Source of the DNA: Microcaldota archaeon
GTDB lineage: Archaea; Micrarchaeota; Micrarchaeia; Micrarchaeales; CABMGC01
Assembly (NCBI GenBank): GCA_027334165.1
Contig: DAHWXM010000015.1
Location: 77,832-124,822 of the forward strand
Direction: 5' to 3'
DNA length: 46,991 nt
Position 1 is the first letter of the stretch. Every line of letters starts with the position of its first letter. Of the stretch, positions 9,135 through 38,310 are shown in pieces. The position numbers and the translations under genes are program-made. The notes under the pieces were generated by a model, which was not told the origin of the DNA, ran no database searches, and saw only the letters and a program-made list of their open reading frames with translations.

Positions 9135-9752
9135 TCAGTTCGCCTTCATCTCCATTTTAACTTCGAAATCGGAGATCTTGTAGTTGAACTCTTCATTTGA
9201 CTTTATTAAGCCTTTCTCCTTCATGAATTCCCTTGCAAGAAGGAAGTAAACGAGTGCAAGGGCCCTGCGTCCCTTGTTGTTGCATGGTATTATCAGGTCT
9301 ACGTACTTTATCAGGTTGTCGGTATCACAGAGTGCAACTGTCGGTATGTTCGTCTTGCTAGCCTCGCGGATAGCCTGCCTTTCGTTCCTGGTATCGCTGA
9401 CAAGCATTATCGCCGGCTCAGAGTAGTCAGCCCTCTTTGGGTTGGTGAATATTCCGGGCATGACTCTCCCCTGAAGGAGCTTCGCGCCGGTTATCTCCGC
9501 AAATTTAGATGCTGCTGATATTGCATAAATCCTTGAAGCGGTGACCACTATGTCCTTGGGTTCATATCTGGCGAGCACCTTCGCCGCCGTCTGTATCCTC
9601 TCATTTATCGTGGAGAGGTTTAGCAGGAATAATCCGTCCTCGCGCACCTTGTATATGAACCTGGACATTCCAGGCGTAGTGACCTTTGTGCCTATGTGCA
9701 CTCCCGCCTCTAAGTATGCGGCCTGATCCAATAGCAGTTCCTCTTGTTCCAT
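9135..9752 (-). CDS. rps2: 30S ribosomal protein uS2
   Basis: Small ribosomal subunit protein. YLEAGVHIGTKVTTPGM near the N-terminus, the RYEPKDIVVTASR region, PGIFTNPKRADYSEPAIMLVSDTR and PTVALCDTDN are classic archaeal/eukaryotic S2 (Sa) sequence. ATG 9752 (205 residues) is chosen because GGTGA lies 4 bp upstream as a Shine-Dalgarno sequence. The ORF track extension to 9863 would read into a tRNA gene that ends at 9777. In other archaea this gene closes the L13-S9-RpoN cluster after rpoK and enolase; here those two are absent and a tRNA sits between rpoN and rps2. Confidence 0.95.
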   Translation of the reverse strand: MEQEELLLDQAAYLEAGVHIGTKVTTPGMSRFIYKVREDGLFLLNLSTINERIQTAAKVLARYEPKDIVVTASRIYAISAASKFAEITGAKLLQGRVMPGIFTNPKRADYSEPAIMLVSDTRNERQAIREASKTNIPTVALCDTDNLIKYVDLIIPCNNKGRRALALVYFLLAREFMKEKGLIKSNEEFNYKISDFEVKMEMKAN

Positions 9753-9790
9753 TGCTTCACCAGTCTTAAGGTTGTTCGGGGTCGCCGAGA

Positions 9791-9815
9791 CTTTCATAGG
9801 CTTTAGAGAGCCTAT
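9791..9815 (-). other. tRNA intron 2 (25 nt, position 59/60)
   Basis: Exon bases TTCA pair with intron bases TGAA to form a 4-bp central helix. The 5' bulge is AA^A and the 3' bulge AG^T, each cut after the second base. Inside the intron TAGGCT pairs with AGCCTA around a 6-nt loop, and outside it the T-stem CCGAG/CTCGG forms the outer helix once intron 1 is gone. This is textbook splicing-endonuclease geometry. Confidence 0.8.
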
Positions 9816-9821
9816 TTTGAA

Positions 9822-9838
9822 TTCCCGAAAGAATTTTT
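9822..9838 (-). other. tRNA intron 1 (17 nt, position 53/54)
   Basis: Exon CCCG pairs with intron CGGG as the 4-bp central helix. The 5' bulge is AG^A and the 3' bulge AA^T, each cut after the second base. A tiny AAA/TTT hairpin lies inside. The outer helix is weak (GA/TC), so it resembles the relaxed helix-bulge-helix form. At 17 nt it is close to the shortest archaeal tRNA introns I know of. Confidence 0.75.
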
Positions 9839-9916
9839 CTCGGGTCTTATGCTCCCTAAGCACAGAGCCTAACCAAGCTAGCAGACGACCCCGTACTTTA
9901 TCGTTTGGCTGATCTT

Positions 9917-10157: not shown

Positions 10158-10706
10158 TCATCTATAGGACTTCTGGAATTTTGCTCTTGCCTTAGGTCCA
10201 AGGAACTTCTTGGGTTCCACTCTCCTATAATCATCAACTAGAATGGTTCTGTCGTAATCCATGTAAAGCTTTCTGAGCGAGTCGCCGCTCGCTGCCTCGG
10301 CGAGCGCTTTTCCTATCGCACTCCTGGCAGCCTGCGCCTGCCCGCTCCTGCCTCCTCCATAAACATTGATTGAGATATCTGAACCACTTGCTATCTCCAT
10401 TGCCTTCTCCGATATCTTTATCGGTTCCATTATGAGCTCCCTCAAGAATTCCGGCCTCATGAACTTTATGTCGCTGCCGTTTATAAGAACCCTGCCGCTG
10501 CCCTGCACCAGCGTCGCGCGCGCTATTGCCTCCTTGCGCTTGCCCTTTGCCATCACTAGCTTCTTCTTCGTCGTGCTCTTACCAACTGCCTTCTTCTTCG
10601 GCGCTGCGCTTTTTCTCGCTCCCGCGCGCTTCTGCGGCGCCTGCTTCGGCTGGTAAAGCGTCTCCAATTCCTTGTCCAGGTTAACGTTCTTGTTCTCTTC
10701 AGCCAT
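10158..10706 (-). CDS. rps9: 30S ribosomal protein uS9 with Lys/Ala-rich N-terminal extension
   Basis: The conserved C-terminal ~130 residues carry the S9 core: GKRKEAIARATLVQGSGRVLING, the GGGRSGQAQAARSAIGKAL loop and the basic RAKFQKSYR tail that reaches into the decoding centre. About 50 residues precede it, low-complexity and rich in Lys/Ala, absent from typical archaeal S9 proteins (~130-150 residues); such tails usually contact rRNA. The start is taken as ATG 10706 (MAEEN), with GATGAT upstream; ATG 10715 overlaps the uL13 stop. Confidence 0.95.
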   Translation of the reverse strand: MAEENKNVNLDKELETLYQPKQAPQKRAGARKSAAPKKKAVGKSTTKKKLVMAKGKRKEAIARATLVQGSGRVLINGSDIKFMRPEFLRELIMEPIKISEKAMEIASGSDISINVYGGGRSGQAQAARSAIGKALAEAASGDSLRKLYMDYDRTILVDDYRRVEPKKFLGPKARAKFQKSYR

Positions 10707-10711
10707 CACTA

Positions 10712-11155
10712 TCATCTATTTAGGTGGTTCTTGTATCCGAGGTCTTCCATGAGTTCGCTCACGGTCATGGCATTCTGGTATAGCTCTTTAGGACTCTTGG
10801 ACTCTACTTTTGAAACATCAGCACTCTTGAATTCCTCTGGTGTGCCTATGTACACCTTGAGCAACTTGTACGCGGCCTTCCCTTTTGGCTTCTTGTACGG
10901 CAGCATGCCCCTTATGCTCCTCTTTACGAACAGGTCCGGTCTCCTTGACCAGTAAGGCGAGTGCTCCGGATTTGCTTTGTCTTTAAGCTCTAAGAGCTGT
11001 TTGTACTTTTCAAAAAGAACTTTCCTGTCACCGCTTATCGATATCTTCTCCGCGTTGAGCAGAACGACGCTCTTTCCATTAAGAAGCTGCTTAGCTACCT
11101 GGCTCCCTACTCTGCCAAGCACCTTGTCGCTTCCGTCTATTATCAAGTCCGCCAT
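10712..11155 (-). CDS. rpl13: 50S ribosomal protein uL13
   Basis: Large-subunit protein. LIIDGSDKVLGRVGSQVAKQLL near the N-terminus, VVLLNAEKISISGDR, and the PYWSRRPDLFVKRSIRGMLPYKKPKGK core are unmistakable archaeal L13. 147 residues. It lies 10 bp after eL18 and its stop is close to the uS9 start, as in a translationally coupled operon. Confidence 0.96.
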   Translation of the reverse strand: MADLIIDGSDKVLGRVGSQVAKQLLNGKSVVLLNAEKISISGDRKVLFEKYKQLLELKDKANPEHSPYWSRRPDLFVKRSIRGMLPYKKPKGKAAYKLLKVYIGTPEEFKSADVSKVESKSPKELYQNAMTVSELMEDLGYKNHLNR

Positions 11156-11165
11156 GAAACTGACC

Positions 11166-11519
11166 TTATATTATGATCCTAACATTCTCTTTCTTGCGCA
11201 TCTCCTGCAGCCCTAATATCTTGCCATTCGCCTTCTTTATTTTTTCCTCGGCGTCATGCGAGTATTCGACTGCGGTTATATTTAACTCTTTGCTGAGCTT
11301 TCCTCCTCCGAGGACCTTGCCAGGAACGATGACGTTGTCACCGCTCTGCGCATGCTTCTGAAGCTTGGAGAGATTCACCGCAATCCGGCGTCTCTTTGGC
11401 CTGGAAGCGAGCTTGTATACATAGTCCCACAGTTTTGCGTTCTTCTCGTTCTTTCCTACCTTGCTAAGCTCATCTAGCCATTCCATGACGCCTGTCTTTT
11501 CGATGTTCCTCTTTTGCAT
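11166..11519 (-). CDS. rpl18e: 50S ribosomal protein eL18
   Basis: Archaeal/eukaryotic large-subunit protein. RPKRRRIAVNLSKLQKHAQSGD and VPGKVLGGGKLSKELNITAVEYS are diagnostic. ATG 11519 (MQKRN, 117 residues) is preceded by GGTGA as Shine-Dalgarno. The longer ORF to 11558 would run into the tRNA-Leu gene. It heads the L18e-L13-S9-RpoN run. Confidence 0.95.
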   Translation of the reverse strand: MQKRNIEKTGVMEWLDELSKVGKNEKNAKLWDYVYKLASRPKRRRIAVNLSKLQKHAQSGDNVIVPGKVLGGGKLSKELNITAVEYSHDAEEKIKKANGKILGLQEMRKKENVRIII

Positions 11520-11533
11520 ACATTCACCATCCG

Positions 11534-11619
11534 TGCGGGGGGTGAGATTTGAACTCACGCAAGCGATAAGCTACTGACCCCTCAAGCCAGCGCATTTGAC
11601 CATGCTCTGCCACCCCCGC
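11534..11619 (-). tRNA. tRNA-Leu (GAG)
   Basis: Acceptor GCGGGGG/CCCCCGC with A73; D-arm with GGTCAA; anticodon stem CTGGC/GTCAG around TTGAGGG, giving anticodon GAG; a long class II variable arm; T-arm GTGAG-TTCAAAT-CTCAC. 86 nt, no intron, CCA not encoded (CGG follows). It lies between rpoD and eL18 on the same strand. Confidence 0.95.
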
Positions 11620-38189: not shown

Positions 38190-38310
38190 TGGCGGAGGGG
38201 AGATTTGAACACCCGACCTCTAGATTTCTTAGCAATCACAGCAAAAAGCTCATCACTCATAAAACGTAGCTTATGAGTCTAGCGCTCTAACCAGGCTGAG
38301 CTACTCCGCC
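38190..38310 (-). tRNA. Elongator tRNA-Met (CAT) with 46-nt intron
   Basis: Acceptor GGCGGAG/CTCCGCC with A73, D-arm GCTC...GAGC with GGTTA, anticodon stem CTAGA/TCTAG with loop CTCATAA after intron removal, T-arm GGGTG-TTCAAAT-CTCCC (one T-T mismatch). The intron is at the canonical 37/38 position (38226-38271). CCA is not encoded. Elongator rather than initiator because the anticodon stem lacks the three consecutive G-C pairs. Confidence 0.93.
38226..38271 (-). other. tRNA-Met intron (37/38)
   Basis: 46 nt. The boundaries come from the mature anticodon loop. The central helix is imperfect (CTCA against TAAG, one C-A mismatch) with bulges TA^A and AA^A. An alternative hairpin ACTCATAA/TTATGAGT, perfect over 8 bp, pairs the anticodon with intron sequence. 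Confidence 0.75.

Follow-up and report, generated by a model that had tools for sequence, protein, structure and literature searches.

Archaea have been described as lacking all ANN anticodons (PMC8007984), with genes for A34 tRNAs absent from the domain (PMC11066159), and our literature search found no paper that reports an exception. In eukaryotes, the AGG anticodon encoded by tRNA-Pro genes is made IGG by ADAT2/3. A34 proline tRNAs are also known as mutants or engineered forms from Salmonella and E. coli (cited in PMC11066159), in which unmodified AGG reads CCU and CCC; Schmitt and colleagues showed that in E. coli such a tRNA, with no detectable inosine, reads the two codons almost equally, and found no functional grounds for the failure of A34 tRNAs of this kind to evolve (PMC11066159). 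A second line of earlier work concerns tRNA introns: ARMAN-1 and ARMAN-2 are among the archaea with multiple-intron tRNAs (PMC4033280), and their introns, like those of Thermoproteales, are tiny and non-canonical and have splice sites of the bulge-helix-bulge (BHB) type, served in ARMAN by an epsilon2 endonuclease, a type of enzyme that accepts relaxed and unusually placed splice sites (PMC12397907, PMC4033280).

Here we describe a locus in which these two subjects meet, within a window of 46,991 nucleotides (the whole stretch of DNA analysed) from a Microcaldota archaeon (genome G000). In our reading, to which we assign a probability of roughly 0.85, the locus is a working proline tRNA gene whose introns would be spliced out and in which, as in the rest of its family, G34 has given way to A34 (Table 1). 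Assignment to tRNA-Pro follows its NGG anticodon, G37, the loop TTAGGGA and a body like that of the family's UGG and CGG proline tRNAs. The evidence is DNA sequence, mostly from metagenome assemblies, and from it we infer that the tRNA is expressed, charged with proline and spliced from its precursor to the mature 74-nt form. A preliminary description of the locus correctly identified the introns, their cut sites and their likely order of removal, but passed over the AGG anticodon, which is the more surprising feature.

Table 1. Features of the tRNA-Pro(AGG) locus and its surroundings (window coordinates; sequences 5' to 3' on the gene strand)
Feature	Position	Strand	Detail	Basis
tRNA-Pro(AGG) gene, two T-arm introns	9777..9892	minus	116 nt; mature 74 nt without CCA; G1 at 9892, discriminator at 9777	direct reading, orthologues (BLAST, alignments)
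Exon 1 (positions 1-53)	9839..9892	minus	GGGGTCG-TC-TGCT-AGCTTGGTTA-GGCT-C-TGTGC-TTAGGGA-GCATA-AGAC-CCGAG	direct reading; sequence kept across relatives
Intron 1, 17 nt, at 53/54	9822..9838	minus	AAAAATTCTTTCGGGAA; central helix CCCG(48-51)/CGGG	
Exon 2 (positions 54-59)	9816..9821	minus	TTCAAA	
Intron 2, 25 nt, at 59/60	9791..9815	minus	ATAGGCTCTCTAAAGCCTATGAAAG; central helix TTCA(54-57)/TGAA; inner helix TAGGCT/AGCCTA	
Exon 3 (positions 60-73)	9777..9790	minus	T-CTCGG-CGACCCC-G	
Anticodon AGG	9855..9857	minus	A34 at 9857; loop TTAGGGA closed by TGTGC/GCATA	
TATA-box-like TATAAAAA	9918..9925	minus	~26-33 nt upstream of G1	
Ribosomal protein uS2 gene	9135..9752	minus	directly downstream of tRNA	Pfam PF00318, E 1.6e-22
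uS9, uL13, eL18 (L18e)	10158..11558	minus	upstream part of ribosomal operon	

Both T-arm introns proposed at the outset are borne out by direct reading and by orthologues that have one intron or none and the same exons; their central helices and 3-nt bulges, cut after the second base, read as claimed. Excision of both restores a canonical tRNA, whose joined T-arm, CCGAG-TTCAAAT-CTCGG as first given, is exactly that of two intronless orthologues (L097 and L298). The landmark residues T8, A14, G15-C48, G18G19, T54-A58 and C56 are all present. Of the four stems said to form, the acceptor, anticodon and T-stems do so, but the D-stem is weak, with three pairs (G11-C24, C12-G23 and U13.G22) and U10 opposed to U25. 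The TATA box reported upstream is likewise there (TATAAAAA, 9925-9918), and resembling boxes lie at equal distance upstream of the orthologous genes of several relatives. On the other side, uS2 starts ~25 nt past the end of the tRNA and is the neighbour in relatives too, all orthologues read out in their context lying upstream of it. In relatives the base at -1 is often complementary to the discriminator (C-1/G73, once T-1/A73), though not in all species, and this could be an extension of the acceptor stem.

BLAST with the gene recovered orthologues in 50 of 60 relatives; across the order within Micrarchaeota some have both introns, others one of the two, and others no intron. The exons hardly differ among 82 distinct gene sequences, whereas insert length ranges from 11 to 32 nt. 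Within the archaeon's own family (66 genes), both introns are present in 15, intron 2 alone in 49 and intron 1 alone in two; in the sister family (16 genes) the corresponding counts are nine, five and one, with a single intronless gene, L097. In the same 82 orthologues we observed that intron 1 occurs only in genes whose T-stem starts with CCGAG or TCGAG, and in none of the 13 that have CCGCG or CCGGG. Co-varying bases keep each intron's own inner helix: that of intron 2 has a mean of 3.1 stacked pairs over 73 distinct introns, as compared to 0.84 when partners are swapped between species (none of 500 swaps scored as high, the top one reaching 1.29), and that of intron 1 has 1.8 as compared to 0.50. 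A tree built from uS2, uS9 and uL13 calls for at least 11 changes of intron 1 and three of intron 2. With its 4-bp central helix and two 3-nt bulges, intron 2 fits the BHB class in full after removal of intron 1; intron 1 has the central and inner helices, but its outer helix amounts to only about two pairs, a relaxed form. Together, these comparisons of sequence indicate that the T-arm introns of the tRNA-Pro are real.

The preliminary description called the pair of introns extreme. This is apt for their spacing, six bases apart in one T-arm, and less so for their rarity, as the same pair is found in many genomes of the order. Short non-canonical introns and multiple introns are already established in ARMAN, and the T-arm pair is a rather extreme further case. 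Unlike the multiple-intron tRNAs of ARMAN-1, ARMAN-2 and Thermoproteales, the pair described here combines this close spacing with a second site that would depend on removal of the first, and it is widespread in the order, with introns lost or gained repeatedly.

A broad-specificity epsilon2 splicing endonuclease, whose presence the preliminary description suggested checking, is encoded in the same genome. Two PF01974 matches fall in one 385-aa frame whose best solved relative is the ARMAN-2 epsilon2 enzyme (PDB 4fz2; 336 aa, E 3e-138), to which it is ~60% identical (PDB 4fz2, 9w2k); it thus agrees with the three-unit chain of ~390 aa, homologous to the ARMAN-2 enzyme, that marks the epsilon2 class, and it is an orthologue of a type that accepts relaxed splice sites. 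We propose that this endonuclease would remove the two bulge-helix-bulge introns from the precursor. In single-structure folding of that precursor, C48-G53 are paired with intron 1 and the T-stem is blocked; with intron 1 taken out, the T-stem and the intron 2 hairpin form together. Since the T-stem serves as the outer helix of intron 2 and is blocked until intron 1 is gone, intron 1 would likely be cut first and intron 2 second. This agrees with the ordered splicing proposed earlier, as CCGAG is held by the intron 1 helix in the predicted fold and would pair with CTCGG only after intron 1 is lost. Our literature search found no experimental epsilon2 substrate of the two-intron T-arm kind.

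We then turn to the anticodon. Its stem consists of five pairs that are kept through compensatory changes (TGTGC/GCATA, TGTGC/GCACA, TGCGC/GCGCA and TATGC/GCATA), and the loop motif YTAGGG is conserved throughout the family. A third intron that would alter the anticodon was considered and rejected: in every relative the stem covaries around a loop of 7 nt, and therefore no hidden intron shifts the frame. One search pattern finds the AGG gene in 70 of the 79 family genomes and 25 of the 27 genera, and another adds a 71st genome (G071), so that AGG is present in at least 71 of 79; by pattern scan, all 19 family genomes that are at least 90% complete have it. The same anticodon pattern was found in none of 222 genomes of the phylum outside the family and in none of 85 sister-family genomes. 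In the sister family the orthologous locus, in the same operon and with the same acceptor, T-arm and introns, carries GGG, which a pattern scan recovers in 53 of 85 genomes; G34 there stands in the loop TTGGGGT in place of TTAGGGA, and the anticodon stem is different. On the uS2, uS9 and uL13 tree a single change of anticodon, with support of 100, suffices. Its direction was likely from GGG to AGG, because archaea are otherwise without ANN anticodons (PMC8007984); G34 would thus have been replaced by A34 once in the family. In a public genome collection, 68 of 69 matches to the AGG pattern, which requires a particular D-arm motif and would not pick up divergent proline tRNAs with A34 elsewhere, are metagenome-assembled genomes labelled Micrarchaeota or, in a few cases, Marsarchaeota or 'bacterium'; the remaining match, in Streptomyces, is a chance one. 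The A34 anticodon of this family contradicts the published statement that archaea lack all ANN anticodons.

Has the usual GGG tRNA been lost from the family? The source genome is 83% complete, so that its own lack of GGG means little, and it is the other family genomes that carry the point. With a pattern that allows an intron after the anticodon (37/38), a GGG proline tRNA was found in the family only in G029, the one other match not being a tRNA; a G091 match from the GGG pattern scan mentioned above is no tRNA either. The G029 gene (L210, G029:C84, minus strand) is intronless, lies on a 3.7-kb contig elsewhere than the uS2 locus and has a body like that of the family's UGG tRNA; G029 carries AGG too, and L210 is possibly the result of a recent change from U34 to G34, or of contamination. 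In G011 (97% complete) the tRNA set is full and proline is represented only by AGG, UGG and CGG, while tRNAs with G34 serve the remaining four-codon boxes, namely Ala GGC, Thr GGT, Val GAC, Gly GCC, Leu GAG, Arg GCG and Ser GGA, the last from L280 read by hand.

CCC nevertheless remains in use. Sampled genes of the source genome contain 723 CCC and 875 CCT codons, and CCC makes up 16% of proline codons in 30 family samples, as compared to 17% in the sister family; relative avoidance of CCC did not differ significantly between the two families (p = 0.17 or 0.07). As for an enzyme that might convert A34, the TadA-type profile PF00383 has no match in the source genome or most of the family, and PF14437 matches in only 21 of 79 family genomes (4 of the 19 best); neither TadA-type profile matches in the source genome or in the near-complete G007, G011 and G015. 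The six matches that we examined resemble dCMP, cytidine or related deaminases, and none comes close to the TadA cut-off (the best, in one genome, scoring 76.7 against 150 bits). By these profile searches, the family has no conserved TadA-type deaminase. Given the lack of GGG, the continued use of CCC and the absence of a conserved TadA-like deaminase, we lean towards the view that A34 is left unmodified and serves for CCU as well as CCC, with help from two strong G-C pairs. Such a tRNA would be the first natural one with A34 in archaea, fixed in a family, in contrast to the mutant or engineered A34 tRNAs of Salmonella and E. coli.

It is also conceivable, though unlikely, that A34 is deaminated by an archaeal enzyme unrelated to TadA/ADAT, I34 then reading CCU, CCC and CCA. 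Such an I34 is normal in eukaryotic tRNA-Pro, which counts in favour of this alternative, and inosine occurs in archaea at tRNA position 57. With inosine known at that position (PMC8007984), deamination of adenosine is not foreign to tRNA biology; however, no archaeal A34 deaminase is known (PMC8007984), TadA-type profiles match only a minority of family genomes, and the matches examined belong to the other deaminases named above. Here the gene-encoded anticodon is the same as in eukaryotes, but the gene body and locus are archaeal and we found no conserved TadA/ADAT homologue. We regard as similarly doubtful a division of labour in which the AGG tRNA reads only CCU and the UGG tRNA takes CCC by wide wobble: the family does have UGG and CGG proline tRNAs, but compared with the sister family CCC shows no clear depletion, and unmodified AGG reads CCC well in E. 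coli (PMC11066159).

That the locus is instead a decaying pseudogene, its apparent introns random insertions, might be suspected from the weak D-stem and from the failure of standard tools to report it; we consider this very improbable, as the exons are kept in dozens of species while the inserts vary in length and sequence, the helices co-vary, intron-free orthologues exist and the anticodon stem stays paired through its changes. Moreover, no other gene replaces tRNA-Pro(AGG), and the combination named at the outset as speaking against the gene, a different complete gene for the same isoacceptor along with a lack of conservation of the present locus in close relatives, is not what the genomes show. 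Neither ARAGORN nor Rfam detected the gene at 9777-9892. Among the orthologues, ARAGORN detects none of 15 two-intron genes and three of 49 with intron 2 only, and at its gathering score the Rfam tRNA model reports none of eight tested, including the intronless GGG orthologues L097 and L298, which it probably misses on account of their weak D-stem; because even these go unreported, a negative from Rfam does not count against the gene. It is the introns that conceal the gene from both tools, and A34 may have been overlooked as a result. An assembly or sequencing error as the source of A34 or of the inserts, though the genomes are metagenome assemblies, is more remote still, since this A34 recurs in 70 independent assemblies, from 25 genera, and nowhere outside the family.

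If A34 is indeed unmodified, the family would break, in nature, the rule by which A34 occurs only where it is deaminated. One archaeal family, the proline box, a single switch and no conserved TadA-type enzyme would make the A34 question testable in nature. Two interdependent introns in one T-arm, with relatives that have one, two or none, likewise offer a ready-made system for the epsilon2 endonuclease, and they serve as a warning that isoacceptors can go unnoticed in tRNA scans of such archaea.

A loose cloverleaf scan that allowed an over-long T-loop returned, in the window, only the tRNA-Pro locus and a normal tRNA-His, and gave one match in 30 Markov-shuffled windows. At 38190-38310 on the minus strand, Rfam and, when introns are allowed, ARAGORN report a further gene of the window, a tRNA-Met(CAU) whose intron, of ~46 nt, is a canonical one in the anticodon loop. 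Elsewhere in the same genome, a tRNA-Leu gene (L030, G000:C3:4254-4352) has a 14-nt insert in its T-loop, TTCAA-TAAAAATTGAACAA-AT, in which GTTC/GAAC may form a central helix; the proline tRNA would therefore not be alone in having T-loop introns.
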